From NCBI GenBank assembly GCA_025699025.1, contig JAILWJ010000002.1, positions 1-64,000 of the forward strand: a DNA stretch of 64,000 nucleotides, in the 5' to 3' direction. The DNA comes from Nitrosarchaeum sp. Lineage in GTDB: Archaea; Thermoproteota; Nitrososphaeria; Nitrososphaerales; Nitrosopumilaceae. Positions 45,262-51,164 of the stretch are shown piece after piece. A model generated the notes under the pieces. That model had not been told where the DNA came from. It did not search any database and saw only the letters and a program-made list of their open reading frames with translations. The first letter of the stretch is position 1, and each line of letters opens with the position of its first letter. A program made the position numbers and the translations under genes.

Positions 45262-46125
45262 TTGCAATTAAAAAGTGCGGATCTTAATCAGGTGGTCATT
45301 AAGAGGACTGTGACTATTAACCCCAATGCTACACTTCTAGATGCTAGAGAGATTTTACTAAGACATAATTTGAAAAGATTGGTAGTCATAGATGCAAAAA
45401 ATCGACCAGTGGGAATAATTACAGAAAAAGACATTGCAAAGACAATCTACGCACTTGGAGACAAGCCGATCAAATCTGTAAAAGTATCTGGATTTATGTC
45501 AAAAAAATTGATTACTATAAAGAAAACAGATTCCATCTATGATTGTGCCAAATTAATGAAGAAAAATCGAATTAGCTCCATTATTGTTTTAGGCAAAGAT
45601 GGAGTTTTAGAAGGACTTGTTACAAAAACAGATCTGGCGTCACTTTTCCTTACTCATGCAGTAGCTCCACTCAAAGTTTCAAAGATAATGACTAGAAATG
45701 TAATTACAGTTATGCCTGGAGATTCATTGTTGTATGTAGAAAGTTTGTTGATTCATAATAGAATCGCTAGAATCGTGGTAGAACGAAATAAGATGCCTGT
45801 AGGGATTATAACTTTTAGAGATTTTGTACCAGCAAAATTACCTTATTGGATTGCTCAATCAGCCGATCCAAAGGAGGTTCAAGAATATAAAATGAAAAGT
45901 AATTTTGCAGAATACCATGTAAATCAGATGAGCCACCTGTTGCATTTTAAAGCAGTAGATATAATGTCAGCAAACCCAATCACAGTTGATGCTGACGAAG
46001 ACGTTGGAGTAGCTGTTTTGTTAATGATAAGAAACAATATCAGTGGTATTCCTGTCGTAAAAAAATCAAAACTTGTTGGAATTATTACTAAGACAGATAT
46101 TGTAAAAGCAATTGCAGATGCCTAA
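45262..46125 (+). CDS. Protein with four CBS motifs
   Basis: 287 residues from TTG at 45262. Four CBS motifs follow: LKRLVVIDAKNRPVGIITEK near residue 37, ISSIIVLGKDGVLEGLVTKT near residue 103, IARIVVERNKMPVGIITFRD near residue 169 and ISGIPVVKKSKLVGIITKTD near residue 259, with an insert of about 40 residues before the last. No attached catalytic domain is present. CBS pairs typically bind AMP/ATP and alter a partner's activity. It is divergent from the CBS-hibernation gene across about 125 bp, so both may share control. Confidence 0.88.
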   Translation: MQLKSADLNQVVIKRTVTINPNATLLDAREILLRHNLKRLVVIDAKNRPVGIITEKDIAKTIYALGDKPIKSVKVSGFMSKKLITIKKTDSIYDCAKLMKKNRISSIIVLGKDGVLEGLVTKTDLASLFLTHAVAPLKVSKIMTRNVITVMPGDSLLYVESLLIHNRIARIVVERNKMPVGIITFRDFVPAKLPYWIAQSADPKEVQEYKMKSNFAEYHVNQMSHLLHFKAVDIMSANPITVDADEDVGVAVLLMIRNNISGIPVVKKSKLVGIITKTDIVKAIADA

Positions 46126-46127
46126 AA

Positions 46128-46538
46128 TCATTTTATTATAAGAATTGAACAAGGCGAGTTATTTGCAAGTTTATTGGAGACGCTTCCAAGAAAGAATCGG
46201 GCTGTTGCGCCAAGACCTTTACTTCCTACAATAATCAGGTTACATTGTTCTTTTTTTGCAAGCTTGATTATTTCATTGGTGATGTTTCCTTCTTTCATAA
46301 TTATTTTTGAATCAAGACCTTTCATAGTGGTTGTTTCTTTTGCTTTAATCAAAACTTTATTCCCGAATTTTCTTAAAATGCCAAGATATTCTTTTCTATC
46401 CAAGAAATTGATCGGAAATGTTTTTTCAACTACATGTAAAAGTATCAAACGAGAATGATAGTTTTTTGCCATGTCACATGCATGTAACAGAGCCTTTTCT
46501 GAATATTTTGATCCGTCAAGTGGAACTAGAATATTCAT
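46128..46538 (-). CDS. UspA universal stress protein A
   Basis: 136 residues from ATG at 46538 (six codons after a possible start at 46556). The UspA fold is clear: MNILVPLDGSKYSEKALLHA at the N-terminus and IIVGSKGLGATARFFLGSVS near residue 104, the latter matching the G-2x-G-9x-G-S/T nucleotide-binding loop. ATP-binding is therefore likely. It is convergent with the four-CBS gene with a 2-bp gap. It is the least similar of the four Usp genes here. Confidence 0.92.
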   Translation of the reverse strand: MNILVPLDGSKYSEKALLHACDMAKNYHSRLILLHVVEKTFPINFLDRKEYLGILRKFGNKVLIKAKETTTMKGLDSKIIMKEGNITNEIIKLAKKEQCNLIIVGSKGLGATARFFLGSVSNKLANNSPCSILIIK

Positions 46539-46682
46539 ATAAAGTGATTTTCTCATGTAGAAGTTTACATATTGTGAATATTTAACTAAACTTCAAGATC
46601 ATCAATAATGAAACTAAGAGATAATTCTTATAATTGATAATCTTAATTTGATATTAAATCCAGAAAATGAGAGTAAAAAACA

Positions 46683-47111
46683 ATGATTAAAAAAAACATA
46701 AAGAAGATACTCGTACCGCTTGATGGCTCCAAAAATTCCATGAGAGGATTGGATGAGGCAATTTATCTAGCTAGACAATGTCATGCGACTATTACTGGCT
46801 TGTATGTTATTCCAATCTATCCGAGAAATTTTGCTGATGCAATAATGCCTTATCAAATTCATCTTAAAAAATCAGCTAAAAAGTTTATGAGTGCAGCAAA
46901 AACGAAATGTGCACAGAAAGGAATTGTGTTTGGATCAAAAGTAGTATTTGGTAGTCCAACAGCTGAAATTAATGATATGGTAAATAGTAAAAAATTCGAT
47001 ATGATTGTAATTGGTTCCAGGGGTCAAAGTGGATTAAAAGAAGTGTTTTTGGGCAGTGTTGCAAAAGCTATAGTTCATAAATCAAAAGTTCCCGTATTGG
47101 TCATAAAGTAG
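46683..47111 (+). CDS. UspA universal stress protein B, partner of an inverted near-identical copy
   Basis: 142 residues. ILVPLDGSKNSMRGLDEAIY begins near residue 9 and IVIGSRGQSGLKEVFLGSVA near residue 108 gives the nucleotide-binding loop. Bases 46695-46814 are 119/120 identical to the inverted segment 48640-48759 in UspA D, while the downstream halves differ clearly. That abrupt change points to gene conversion or recent segmental copying. It is followed after 9 bp by UspA C on the same strand. Confidence 0.92.
   Translation: MIKKNIKKILVPLDGSKNSMRGLDEAIYLARQCHATITGLYVIPIYPRNFADAIMPYQIHLKKSAKKFMSAAKTKCAQKGIVFGSKVVFGSPTAEINDMVNSKKFDMIVIGSRGQSGLKEVFLGSVAKAIVHKSKVPVLVIK
46695..46814 (+). repeat. 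120-bp inverted repeat, left arm (pairs with 48640-48759)
   Basis: This segment encodes the N-terminal part of UspA B. On the opposite strand, 48759-48640 is the same sequence with a single substitution (GGC to AGC, Gly to Ser). The two arms are inverted with about 1.8 kb between them and contain no indel. Such arms could undergo gene conversion or invert the intervening genes. Confidence 0.95.
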
Positions 47112-47120
47112 GTAAATGAA

Positions 47121-47588
47121 ATGTTTTCTAAAATGTTAACTAGGATTCTTGTTCCATATGATGGCTCTAAATTTTCATCTAAAGCATTATCACATGCAAT
47201 GGAATTAGCACATAATTTAGACTCGGAAATTTTTTTATTTTCCGTAATTAGTGTTGGATATATCTCACCACCTGGGATGTTGGGTTTGATCAGAACAAAA
47301 TCAGAAAAAGAATCTATGAAAAAATGGCAGAAGATTGTATTTGAGGATACTGAAAAAATGTTAAAGGCAGCTGCAAAGAAATGCAAAGAGAATGGAATTA
47401 CTGCATCTTATAGTATCGCTAGAGGCAATATTGCAAATGAAATATTGAATTTTTCAAAAAAGAAAAAAATTTCATTAATAATAATGGGCAGTCAAGGCCT
47501 TCATGGAATAGGAAAGATCAAAACTTTGGGTAGTGTAAGCAGAAAAGTTTCTGAGCAAGCAAGTTGTCCTGTGCTTTTAGTCAGATAG
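47121..47588 (+). CDS. UspA universal stress protein C
   Basis: 155 residues. The start MFSKMLTRILVPYDGSKFSS gives the usual Usp first strand, and LIIMGSQGLHGIGKIKTLGS near residue 125 the G-2x-G-9x-G loop with G-S. A longer insert (residues 50-75, ISVGYISPPGMLGLIRTKSE) separates strand 2 and the next helix. It is part of the Usp pair with B and ends 2 bp from the convergent small ORF. A nucleotide-dependent stress role is inferred from the family. Confidence 0.9.
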   Translation: MFSKMLTRILVPYDGSKFSSKALSHAMELAHNLDSEIFLFSVISVGYISPPGMLGLIRTKSEKESMKKWQKIVFEDTEKMLKAAAKKCKENGITASYSIARGNIANEILNFSKKKKISLIIMGSQGLHGIGKIKTLGSVSRKVSEQASCPVLLVR

Positions 47589-47590
47589 AC

Positions 47591-47827
47591 CTAACTTAAT
47601 TCGCCTAAAAAGTGTACAATATCATGATCCACTAGTACTGTTCTATCCTTAGGTACATGAAATAGTTTCTTTGAGTTATTTGACTGTATAATAATTTTCG
47701 AGAAAGGATCTTTTAGAGATTTGTATAAAATTCCTTTTTCTCCAATAGATTGCGACCAATGAGTACCCTGAACAAATGTGATTGTCTGGAATTTTATTAC
47801 TTGATAAGAATAAACCATGTAAATCAC
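47591..47827 (-). CDS. Small unknown protein coupled to CBS pair
   Basis: 78 residues from GTG at 47827, overlapping the upstream CBS stop by four bases (GTGA); ATG at 47818 is an alternative. The sequence is beta-rich (YSYQVIKFQTITFVQGTHWS, then KIIIQSNNSKKLFHVPKDRT) with no signal, Cys or membrane segment. The coupling suggests it works with the CBS protein. No family is recognised. Confidence 0.6.
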   Translation of the reverse strand: MIYMVYSYQVIKFQTITFVQGTHWSQSIGEKGILYKSLKDPFSKIIIQSNNSKKLFHVPKDRTVLVDHDIVHFLGELS

Positions 47828-48264
47828 TTATTTTGTTCCATACGTGTTAAGATTTGATCACAAATTCTTCTCATTTCGGAATCAGATCCCACACTACAAA
47901 TTTTAACTAAATCAGTGGTTGTAATTATTCCAATAACCTTACCGTCTTGCATGACAGGTAACTTGTGAATGTTCTTTGTTTTCATAATTTGAGCCGCTTC
48001 CCACACTGTTTCTTCTGGTCCTATTGCAATCAAAGGGGAGGACATTACTTTGTCTAAAGAGTAAGTTGGAGGAATTTCTTTGGCAGTAATCTTTTTTACA
48101 AAATCTCTTTCGGTTAGAATTCCAACCGGAGAATTATCTTTGGTCACTATTATGCAACCTATATTCCTGTAATCCATCATTTTTGCTGCTTCATTTATTG
48201 TAATTGATGCATCTAATTCAGCTAAATCTCTGATCATTACATCTTTTACAAATGTATGAGCCAT
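47824..48264 (-). CDS. Two-CBS-motif protein A
   Basis: 146 residues. CBS motif 1 spans about 8-65 (TINEAAKMMDYRNIGCIIVT, then GILTERDFV) and motif 2 about 72-128 (SSPLIAIGPEETVWEAAQIM, then GIITTTDLV). Two stretches, 48173-48214 and 48002-48037, are identical at DNA level to parts of the inverted CBS gene at 48877. It probably binds an adenine nucleotide as a dimer. It sits between two Usp genes in the stress block. Confidence 0.9.
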   Translation of the reverse strand: MAHTFVKDVMIRDLAELDASITINEAAKMMDYRNIGCIIVTKDNSPVGILTERDFVKKITAKEIPPTYSLDKVMSSPLIAIGPEETVWEAAQIMKTKNIHKLPVMQDGKVIGIITTTDLVKICSVGSDSEMRRICDQILTRMEQNK

Positions 48265-48342
48265 GAAATTATTTTAATGATTATTCTAATAAATAAGATC
48301 TCAATTTCCATGAAAAGAAATTGAAAGTTGAAAGAAATGGCA

Positions 48343-48762
48343 TTATTTTACTATCAATACAGGTATCTTGGATTTATGTAAAACAAAATTCGAAGTACTT
48401 CCAAGAAAAATTTCCTTTATTGAACCCATGCCTCTGGAACCAATTACAATCATATCGAATTTTTTACTGTTTGCATAATTGACAATTTTTGATCCTTCAT
48501 CTCCATAAATCACCATGTCAGAAAAATCAATTCCGTTTTGGGCTGAACGTTTTTTTGCCGTTGACATGAATTTTGATGCATTTTGAAGAAGATGTTTCTC
48601 AACATAAGAAATTTGAGAATCCGTTTGTGGTTTGGATAATGGAATAACATACAAGCTAGTAATAGTCGCATGACATTGTCTAGCTAGATAAATTGCCTCA
48701 TCCAATCCTCTCATGGAATTTTTGGAGCCATCAAGCGGTACGAGTATCTTCTTTATGTTCAC
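48343..48762 (-). CDS. UspA universal stress protein D, inverted near-identical partner of B
   Basis: 139 residues. ILVPLDGSKNSMRGLDEAIY at the N-terminus and IVIGSRGMGSIKEIFLGSTS near residue 105 mark the Usp fold and nucleotide loop. The first 40 residues match UspA B except one residue (LYVIP preceded by S rather than G). From about residue 41 the two differ strongly. It precedes CBS protein A on the minus strand with a 78-bp gap and is divergent from CBS protein B. Confidence 0.92.
   Translation of the reverse strand: MNIKKILVPLDGSKNSMRGLDEAIYLARQCHATITSLYVIPLSKPQTDSQISYVEKHLLQNASKFMSTAKKRSAQNGIDFSDMVIYGDEGSKIVNYANSKKFDMIVIGSRGMGSIKEIFLGSTSNFVLHKSKIPVLIVK
48640..48759 (-). repeat. 120-bp inverted repeat, right arm (pairs with 46695-46814)
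   Basis: The minus strand of this segment equals 46695-46814 except one base. It encodes the start of UspA D. Identity ends sharply at the shared TTCCA, after which the genes diverge. Confidence 0.95.
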
Positions 48763-48823
48763 AATAGCTGTAATATTTAGTCAGATTTAAGATGTTTCTA
48801 TACATTATCGTTTTTGATTTTCA

Positions 48824-48850
48824 ATTATGGTATTATAGAAAGACCATAAT
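48824..48850. promoter_or_regulatory. 8-bp inverted repeat upstream of CBS protein B, overlapping TATA region
   Basis: ATTATGGT at 48824-48831 and ACCATAAT at 48843-48850 are exact complements separated by 11 nt. The second arm overlaps a TATA-like ATAATATAAG whose distance to ATG 48877 (about 26 nt) fits a leaderless start. A repressor or activator dimer site is plausible. Confidence 0.45.
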
Positions 48851-48876
48851 ATAAGGAAAGAATAAAGTACATTGGA

Positions 48877-49341
48877 ATGAATAAGGATCCTACGCGAATT
48901 ACTGTGAAAGATATTATGAATAAATCAGTAATTGCAGTAGATGCATCAATTACAATAAATGAAGCAGCAAAAATGATGGAAGATTCAAAAGTTGGATCCG
49001 TTATAGTTATGGAAAATAATTTACCGATAGGAATTGTTACGGATAGAGATTTTGCAGTGAAAGTAGCAGCTCATGCATATCAAATTTCAACGCCTGTCAA
49101 ACAAATAATGTCTTCTCCTTTGATTGCAATAGGACCAGAAGAAACAGTGTGGATGATTTCAGATTTAATGTATACAAGAGGGGTTAGAAAACTACCTGTA
49201 ATTGAAAATGATCAAGTTATAGGAATTGTAACAGCAACAGATCTCGTAAATCAGCTAGCAATATCAACTGAGGAAGACATACAGAAAATGTTTCATGAAT
49301 CAGTCATTAAAGTATACAAACAATATAGTCCATACAATTAA
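48877..49341 (+). CDS. Two-CBS-motif protein B
   Basis: 154 residues. CBS motif 1 covers about 12-68 (TINEAAKMMEDSKVGSVIVM, GIVTDRDFA) and motif 2 about 78-135 (SSPLIAIGPEETVWMISDLM, GIVTATDLV). DNA segments 48939-48980 and 49117-49152 are identical to inverted parts of CBS protein A, between less similar stretches. Its stop directly abuts the convergent crcB stop. Nucleotide sensing is inferred from the family. Confidence 0.9.
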   Translation: MNKDPTRITVKDIMNKSVIAVDASITINEAAKMMEDSKVGSVIVMENNLPIGIVTDRDFAVKVAAHAYQISTPVKQIMSSPLIAIGPEETVWMISDLMYTRGVRKLPVIENDQVIGIVTATDLVNQLAISTEEDIQKMFHESVIKVYKQYSPYN

Positions 49342-49722
49342 TCACCCATTAATAATATAATTCATCAATGATTTTCCTCCGATTAATGCTCCAATAGATA
49401 ATCCAATATTTGCCAAAAGATTTACTGCCAATGTAATATAATGATGATTATCTAATAGATTGCTAGAATCAAGAGCAAGCGATGACATTGTTGTAAGTGA
49501 ACCACAAAATCCTATTGCAGCAAATAATGAGTATTTACCATCAAGATTCCACTGTTCAGATAAAATTACAAACATTCCTAGAACAAACGCCCCTAGAACA
49601 TTTACAAATAGGACATTTAGAGGCAGAGTGTTTAACAAAACCTGGGATTCTGTAATTTTATATCTGATAAATGCCCCTAGAACAGAGCCTCCTGCCAGAA
49701 ATACAAACTCTAAACCTTTCAT
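49342..49722 (-). CDS. crcB: Fluoride channel/exporter CrcB (Fluc)
   Basis: 126 residues with four membrane segments. Family motifs are FLAGGSVLGAFIRY at the N-terminus, PLNVLFVNVLGAFVLGMFV near residue 34 and AIGFCGSLTTMSSLALDS near residue 70, matching the GG-GA-RY, NxxG and GxxGxxTTxS patterns. Fluc proteins are dual-topology dimers that let fluoride leave the cell. The message has a leader with a probable fluoride riboswitch directly upstream, which agrees with this function. Confidence 0.92.
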   Translation of the reverse strand: MKGLEFVFLAGGSVLGAFIRYKITESQVLLNTLPLNVLFVNVLGAFVLGMFVILSEQWNLDGKYSLFAAIGFCGSLTTMSSLALDSSNLLDNHHYITLAVNLLANIGLSIGALIGGKSLMNYIING

Positions 49723-49813
49723 TGTCTACCTTCTTTTTTTCATTATTGGTAGACATTATCAGTGTTCACAAAACACGGTTTAGGTTACTAGACCAAGGCT
49801 AATGTCATAGCCA
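49723..49813 (-). promoter_or_regulatory. Probable fluoride riboswitch (crcB motif) with SD-sequestering hairpin
   Basis: On the minus strand a P1-like stem GGCU/AGCC (49812-49797) holds the loop UAUGACAU. An AAACC segment precedes a second stem GUGUU/AACAC, then UGAUAAUGUCUACC (49761-49748). GACAUU in the first loop and AAUGUC downstream are exact complements and form the pseudoknot of the fluoride aptamer. An inserted segment lies between P1 and AAACC. Downstream, UGUCUACC can instead pair with GGUAGACA just before the AUG, hiding the AAGGU ribosome-binding region. This supports fluoride-dependent translation of crcB. Confidence 0.8.
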
Positions 49814-49827
49814 GTATGGATAACGTA

Positions 49828-49844
49828 CCTATGATTTTTATAGG
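49828..49844. promoter_or_regulatory. Shared divergent promoter of crcB and DUF1059 gene
   Basis: CCTAT-GATTTTT-ATAGG is an inverted repeat. Read leftward, TATAAAAA (49842-49835) places the crcB start near 49812, at the 5' edge of the riboswitch. Read rightward, the same AT-rich core lies about 28 nt before ATG 49867, fitting a leaderless DUF1059 message. Confidence 0.55.
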
Positions 49845-50231: not shown

Positions 50232-51164
50232 GTGATAAATTATTCTAATGATTATGATGTAAAGTGTCAGCTCGATACTTGCAAAACCTACCCTGTCATT
50301 ACAGATTCTGAAAGAGGAGAAATGTTTTGCGGGGGATGCGGGTTGGTTCTAGTGCAAAACATATCTGATGTTTCACATGAAAACACTGGTTTTACTCAAG
50401 AAGAATATATGAAAGAGACAAGGACAGGTCCTGCAACTTCATTAACAATGCATGACAAAGGACTATCTACAGTAATAGGGATTGACAAGGATTCCACAGG
50501 CAAGGCATTATCAAGTAAAACAAAATATGAATTTAACAGGCTCAGAACTTGGGATCAGAGAAGCAAATCAAGAAAAACCGCAACTCTAAGCAAGGCATTT
50601 ACATTATTGCATGGAATGAAAACAAAGCTTGGAGTTCCTGATAATGTTGTCGAAAGTGCCGCCTATATCTACAGAAAAGCAGTATCTGCAAGGCTTACAC
50701 GTGGAAGAACTATGGCTTCGTTGGTTTCAGCTGCACTGTATGCTGCATGTAGGGAGAATAACATTCCAAGGACTTTGGATGATGTTGCAGCTGCAGGAAA
50801 TATTGAAAGACGTATTTTGTCCAGAGACTTGAGAACAATAATCAAAAAATTGGGATTAAGCCTAAAACAATACGATACAACATCTTTCATATCAAAGATT
50901 TCAAACAACATGAATTTCAAAGAAAAGACCAAGCGGGACGCATTTGACATTCTTAAGAGATGTGAAGACAAGAGAATTACTGCAGGAAAACATCCTGTTG
51001 CACAAGCTGCTGCATCACTGTATATAGCATGTATACTAAATGGAGAAAAAATAAGTCAAAAGAAATTTTCTGTGGAATCAGGAGTCAGCGATGTAACAAT
51101 CAGAAACAGAGCCATTCTGATTAAAAAAACTCTCAATATTTTAGGGGATGAATATGAGTTATAG
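50232..51164 (+). CDS. tfb: Transcription initiation factor TFB (second, divergent copy)
   Basis: 310 residues from GTG at 50232. The zinc ribbon is altered: C-x4-C (CQLDTC) and CGGC rather than two CxxC pairs. The B-linker region (NTGFTQEEYMKETRTGPATS) and both cyclin folds are present (LTRGRTMASLVSAALYAACR and ITAGKHPVAQAAASLYIACI), with a final helix-turn-helix (KFSVESGVSDVTIRNRAILI). Several TFB variants are common in thaumarchaea and may direct different promoter sets. Its end overlaps a small Cys-rich ORF. Confidence 0.93.
   Translation: MINYSNDYDVKCQLDTCKTYPVITDSERGEMFCGGCGLVLVQNISDVSHENTGFTQEEYMKETRTGPATSLTMHDKGLSTVIGIDKDSTGKALSSKTKYEFNRLRTWDQRSKSRKTATLSKAFTLLHGMKTKLGVPDNVVESAAYIYRKAVSARLTRGRTMASLVSAALYAACRENNIPRTLDDVAAAGNIERRILSRDLRTIIKKLGLSLKQYDTTSFISKISNNMNFKEKTKRDAFDILKRCEDKRITAGKHPVAQAAASLYIACILNGEKISQKKFSVESGVSDVTIRNRAILIKKTLNILGDEYEL

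Follow-up and report, generated by a model that had tools for sequence, protein, structure and literature searches.

A fluoride riboswitch of the known crcB class, with a predicted ribosome-binding-site-hiding platform, in the crcB leader of an ammonia-oxidising archaeon

The window analysed here is a stretch of 64,000 nucleotides from a Nitrosarchaeum genome (contig JAILWJ010000002.1, positions 1 to 64,000), and its minus strand carries crcB (49342–49722, ATG at 49722–49720), which encodes a Fluc-type fluoride exporter of 126 residues (PF02537, E 1.7e-20). Directly 5′ of this fluoride-resistance gene, in its leader, the Rfam fluoride model RF01734 matches the minus strand at 49743–49821 over its complete length (model positions 1–64) with 37.8 bits (E 7e-7), 3.8 bits above the gathering cut-off of 34 bits, in agreement with the initial annotation, which had called a fluoride (crcB) riboswitch at this position. 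The Rfam scan of the window returned nothing else above threshold, and no second RF01734 copy is present in the rest of the genome (1.7 Mb). A TFIIB paralogue (50232–51164, plus strand) adjoins crcB and is divergent from it, and genes of this kind are also found after fluoride riboswitches in the islands of the genus Nitrosotalea described below. The region 45262–49341 is a run of small stress genes beside crcB in which universal stress proteins and CBS-domain proteins alternate (two assigned by Pfam, the rest by eye).

The elements of the leader, all on the minus strand, can be read base by base. The P1 hairpin (49797–49812) is formed by GGCU (49812–49809) and AGCC (49800–49797), and its loop carries GACAUU (49806–49801), the 5′ strand of the pseudoknot, which covaries with the pseudoknot strand in relatives. 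An inserted mini-hairpin (49782–49796), in which GGU (49794–49792) pairs with ACC (49785–49783), lies between P1 and the AAACC strand, and is followed by the P2 hairpin (49762–49776; GUGUU 49776–49772 and AACAC 49766–49762); P1 and P2 are both placed by the RF01734 alignment. The 3′ pseudoknot strand of the ligand-bound fold, AAUGUC (49752–49757), is identified by direct reading, the RF01734 alignment and covariation, and the aptamer core (AUG, AACCG, CUGAU.A and CUAC) is intact throughout. The switching strand UGUCUACC (49748–49755) includes UGUC, which is part of the pseudoknot, and UAC, which is a conserved part of the aptamer, and all eight of its nucleotides pair in the other fold with the ribosome-binding-site (RBS) strand GGUAGACA (49723–49730), which complementarity and folding predict to be hidden in the fluoride-free state. 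The pseudoknot GACAUU/AAUGUC comprises 6 bp and the hiding helix 8 bp, with UGUC common to both. The two stems, the loop complement and the 8-nt match had all been proposed from the letters alone, and each is found in its place.

This arrangement is that of the crcB motif (RF01734; Weinberg 2010, PMC2864571), which occurs in bacteria and archaea and consists of P1, P2, a pseudoknot and the AACCG and UGAU.A..CUAC core, located before crcB. The window copy differs from the RF01734 consensus in having an extra hairpin between P1 and AAACC, and in having a predicted RBS-hiding platform where bacterial copies often have a terminator. Judged by its sequence, the crcB leader is a bona fide fluoride riboswitch of a known class, in the form of an archaeal lineage variant, and we infer that fluoride is the ligand of this copy, that the direction of control is ON and that it acts at translation.

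The position of the promoter is consistent with a riboswitch at the very 5′ end of the transcript. A TATA box, TATAAAAA (within CCTATAAAAATCAT), is located at 49835–49842 on the minus strand, with the centre of the hexamer 27 nt before P1, and across 135 RF01734 loci TATA-like hexamers 24–31 nt before P1 occur 109 times compared with 13 in shuffled controls. Such spacing implies that transcription should start at the first G of P1, so that the crcB transcript is predicted to begin near 49812 and to carry a leader of about 90 nt; a start downstream of 49748 is unlikely given this placement of the TATA box.

The initial annotation had also described an AAGGU ribosome-binding region. AGGU (49731–49728), at the RBS strand, is indeed complementary to the 3′ end of the 16S rRNA of this genome, GGATCACCTCCT, although that end allows a Shine–Dalgarno (SD) sequence of AGGU at best, a weak match of only 4 nt, so that concealment of AGGU may be less important than that of the sequence surrounding the AUG. 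Of the related statement that an SD-led message is unusual among many leaderless genes, the first half is supported by a rough count in the window, which found a 4-nt SD-like match in 9 of 74 genes; leaderless-looking genes, with a TATA box at leaderless distance, numbered 15 of the 74 in the same rough count.

The mutually exclusive pairing of the RBS was followed through the class by scoring, in 123 distinct RF01734 loci, the best uninterrupted helix that the final 15 nt of the aptamer can form with the 60 nt that follow. The helix score was at least 8 in 73 of the 123, compared with 1.3% of dinucleotide shuffles. Where the pseudoknot strand reads UGUC the RBS strand reads GACA, and where it reads UGCC the RBS strand becomes GGCA, GGGCA or a G-U variant, with the P1 loop changing along. 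This three-way covariation (loop, pseudoknot, RBS) takes the form A-U-A in 48 loci and G-C-G in 42, these two states mostly tracking lineages (Nitrosopumilaceae on the one hand, Nitrososphaeraceae and Bathyarchaeota on the other), so that the independent changes are far fewer than the number of loci. The exceptions are five loci with a loop G and a pseudoknot U (a G-U pair), two with a pseudoknot U and an RBS G (also G-U), one with a GATA loop and six without the helix. When the RBS regions were swapped between the two groups, the mean helix score fell from 8.7 to 6.4 and from 7.5 to 5.4, and odd copies carry compensated pairs of their own, among them TGTCTCCAG/CTGGAGACA (L053), TGTCTACTCA/TGAGTAGACA (L051), UGUCUCCAG/CUGGAGACA and UGUCUACUCA/UGAGUAGACA. 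One base that keeps two mutually exclusive, covarying partners is what would be expected of a switch. The covariation, the better fit of own than of swapped partners and the joint loss of both elements in sister genomes (see below) all argue for the RBS-hiding hairpin that had been proposed from this single sequence. Four RF01734 matches of 21.9–23.9 bits (L048, L049, L113 and L114) look like chance and are without an RBS helix.

The segment between P1 and AAACC, initially regarded as an unusual element, turns out to be a regular, covarying small hairpin that is common in these archaea. It has no model position in RF01734, where it is aligned as an insertion, and it is absent from the Rfam consensus. 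Among 88 distinct inserts of relatives, five fixed-register pairs are formed in 75% of cells, compared with at most 64% in 500 shuffles, and 86 changes affect both sides of a pair, a count equalled by none of the 500 shuffles. A stem of at least 3 is present in 92% of inserts and in 48% of shuffles, with arms as varied as GGU/ACC, GGA/UCC, GGC/GCC, GAAAU/AUUUC and GAC/GUC, as well as longer ones. The insert is missing in one family of the same order (f3) and present in another family of the phylum with genomes of 2–3 Mb (f41). Scanning 84,980 species for the pattern of P1 GGCTATGNCATTAGCC plus insert gave 49 stretches, every one of them from archaea (Nitrososphaerota, Bathyarchaeota and, in one case, a label of Crenarchaeota); the pattern is so sequence-specific that its archaeal-only matches are no proof that bacteria lack the insert.

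Folding predictions agree with two competing states. The leader folds with −25.5 kcal/mol (z = −4.6 against shuffles), and the hiding helix is part of the predicted minimum-energy free fold in 94 of 98 leaders. In the window copy the hiding hairpin alone is predicted at −9.5 kcal/mol, and the duplex energies are −4.1 kcal/mol for the pseudoknot and −11.0 kcal/mol for the hiding helix. None of these folding energies takes account of magnesium, the ligand or the tertiary part of the pseudoknot. When the leader is free, its eight RBS bases have a pairing probability of 1.0 (0.83 for the last base), which drops to at most 0.21 when the aptamer is held, that is, with the pseudoknot strands, UAC and UAAACC constrained as bound and the insert hairpin formed. 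If the insert hairpin is left free in this model, pairing of the RBS is still about 0.6, which suggests that the inserted hairpin may help to keep the RBS free. A pairing of CUAAACC (49783–49777) with GGUUUAG at the start of the coding region (49716–49710), seen in a longer fold, is probably incidental and was dropped because the crcB genes of aptamer-less relatives have the same codons.

The reading that best unites these features, to which we assign a probability of nearly nine in ten, is that the RF01734 element with which the crcB mRNA begins is a translational ON switch. The aptamer (P1, the inserted hairpin, P2 and the pseudoknot between loop 1 and AAUGUC) would form first, during RNA synthesis. 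With fluoride and magnesium bound, the pseudoknot would hold UGUC and UAC, leaving GGUAGACA and the AUG single-stranded and allowing crcB to be translated. With no fluoride present, the stronger 8-bp UGUCUACC/GGUAGACA helix would displace the weak 6-bp pseudoknot, hide the ribosome-binding region and keep the exporter low.

The same aptamer could instead control transcription, through termination or pausing, as in most of the fluoride riboswitches that have been studied, for example that of Bacillus cereus crcB (PMC13273304). We consider this improbable, albeit the best of the alternatives. On direct reading no T-run follows the hiding helix, which is succeeded by AATGAAAGG, so there is no terminator; moreover, the helix ends at the AUG, and across the lineage the complement adjoins the start codon, as expected for a helix that hides the RBS.

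Slightly less probable still is that the window copy is a decaying, non-functional remnant. Its score stands not far above the cut-off, and decay is evident nearby: the leader arrangement is shared by four of the five genomes of the genus, and in a congener (G001/L168) the aptamer is partly decayed, with changes in the loop, the switching strand and the RBS strand, and gives no Rfam match. However, the pseudoknot, the UAC and AAACC strands and the 8-bp hiding helix of the window copy are intact, and three congeners keep the same elements. Beyond the genus the element recurs through the Thermoproteota: RF01734 matches were found in 44 of 250 family genomes, in 94 of 399 at the level of the class and in 87 of 397 at that of the phylum, the two larger searches having used stricter filters that undercount and that both miss the window's own copy. 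The crcB gene itself is present in 143 of the 250 family genomes, many of them without an aptamer match. Most of the Nitrosopumilus-type crcB leaders examined have kept a TATA box roughly 100–110 nt before the ATG and have lost P1, the pseudoknot and GGTAGACA altogether, which indicates that in sister-genus genomes loss of the presumed sensor goes together with loss of the RBS complement. In marine Nitrosopumilus-type crcB leaders a stretch, ATAGCACTAATAA, is conserved about 45 nt before the ATG (L167, L169–L182, L188–L207), and no conserved RNA structure was found in these leaders (RNAalifold 0.0).

Ten loci, mostly of family f3 (L064, L068, L081, L085, L087, L089, L092, L097, L103 and L107), carry an aptamer without the insert. 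In these, GCGAGCGG before the start codon complements the 5′ strand of P2, CCGCTCGC, and this P2-5′-strand partner is a predicted second way of hiding the RBS.

The genes linked to the riboswitch bear on the identity of the ligand. In 72 of 135 loci crcB comes first behind the switch or stands a short way downstream, and for many others it lies codirectionally within about 2 kb. In Nitrosotalea the first gene often encodes a secreted or membrane-anchored protein, several of them blue-copper-like as judged by eye, with crcB codirectional within about 2 kb. Two genomes of this genus concentrate riboswitches, with eight within about 21 kb in one (G211, C57:26771–47715) and seven within about 19 kb in the other (G212, C37:54369–73392), and these clusters (loci L050–L053) are apparent fluoride islands. 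By Pfam, the G212 island includes enolase, a fluoride target, together with subunits resembling those of complex I and group-4 hydrogenases, a HAD phosphatase, a universal stress protein, a TFIIB paralogue and a ferredoxin; inspection by eye added MFS, AsnC-like and other genes, as well as the G211 counterparts of the G212 genes. Nitrosotalea is known to grow under acidic conditions, in which fluoride passes into cells as HF, and its fluoride switches may be linked to this way of life. Other riboswitch-linked genes in the lineage encode CrcB and, by eye, antiporter-like proteins of 368 residues and MutS-like ATPases.

Enolase, formate-hydrogenlyase-type and HAD proteins belong to the classes of gene that have been catalogued with fluoride riboswitches (PMC11139923), and the genes linked in this lineage match the listed classes (PMC11139923, PMC2864571), a correspondence that speaks for fluoride as the ligand in the lineage. 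A fold that resembles the fluoride aptamer and answers another ligand in ammonia oxidisers might be suspected from the Nitrosotalea first genes, which are not obvious fluoride genes, but it is very unlikely given the intact conserved core, the frequent proximity of crcB and the enolase of the islands.

Several further arrangements were observed among the relatives. In L055–L058, from other members of the class, aptamers precede MutS-like ATPases of about 495 residues (by eye), which fits the mutS link of the original crcB motif. In L009, L012, L014, L028, L010 and L021 a short open reading frame that starts at the AUG of the switch lies between the switch and crcB; in the first three its stop overlaps the crcB AUG (ATATGAAG), which suggests translational coupling, and in L028 it looks like a remnant of a 390-residue first gene (MNTKNQKQKLGWYKNL). 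In one archaeon of the same phylum (G596) RF01734 matches six times, and a stretch of 14 kb (C13:114652–128591) accommodates five of these matches, two of which are weak; this may be a second type of fluoride island.

That GGUAGACA is simply a common ribosome-binding sequence, containing the weak SD AGGU, and matches the pseudoknot strand by coincidence is the least credible alternative, as GGTAGACA followed by ATG within 4 nt occurs five times in 1.7 Mb (one of them at 49720–49730, in the crcB leader) against two for the reversed control, and as the RBS strand changes with the pseudoknot strand and is gone from leaders that have lost the aptamer.

As a presumed translational ON switch, the window copy has counterparts among described systems. 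The fluoride riboswitch of Thermococcus kodakarensis is likewise archaeal and presumed to be translational (Speed et al. 2018, as reported in PMC8241225); its host is a hyperthermophilic euryarchaeon, and it is compared here at the level of its description. In the primary transcriptome of T. kodakarensis the RNA is placed upstream of TK0513 and not of the crcB gene, TK0514 (PMC4247193), and only one natural archaeal riboswitch has been described as experimentally studied (PMC8241225). The switches of Pseudomonas syringae and Burkholderia pseudomallei, which have served as translational controls, are also of the translational type without an intrinsic terminator (PMC13273304), the comparison here being one of type, and their hosts are bacteria. 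In the B. cereus crcB switch the 3′ part of the aptamer similarly alternates between aptamer and expression platform (PMC13273304), but the competing helix of that switch is a terminator, whereas that of the window copy is predicted to hide the translation start. A literature search found no binding or expression data for any ammonia-oxidising archaeon.

The class itself is already known; the novelty lies in the archaeal platform documented here, in the extra hairpin with its conservation and in the islands. On balance, these features probably define a fluoride-riboswitch sub-type of Thermoproteota archaea, characterised by a hairpin in J1/2, a transcript that starts at P1 and an RBS helix made with the pseudoknot strand, accompanied by the multi-gene islands of Nitrosotalea and by the P2-5′-strand RBS partner in other lineages. 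The mechanism of an archaeal riboswitch can here be read from evolution, in that one strand has two exclusive, covarying partners. For the organisms, the distribution suggests that soil and freshwater ammonia oxidisers, Nitrosotalea above all, invest in defence against fluoride, and that their marine relatives have lost the sensor.
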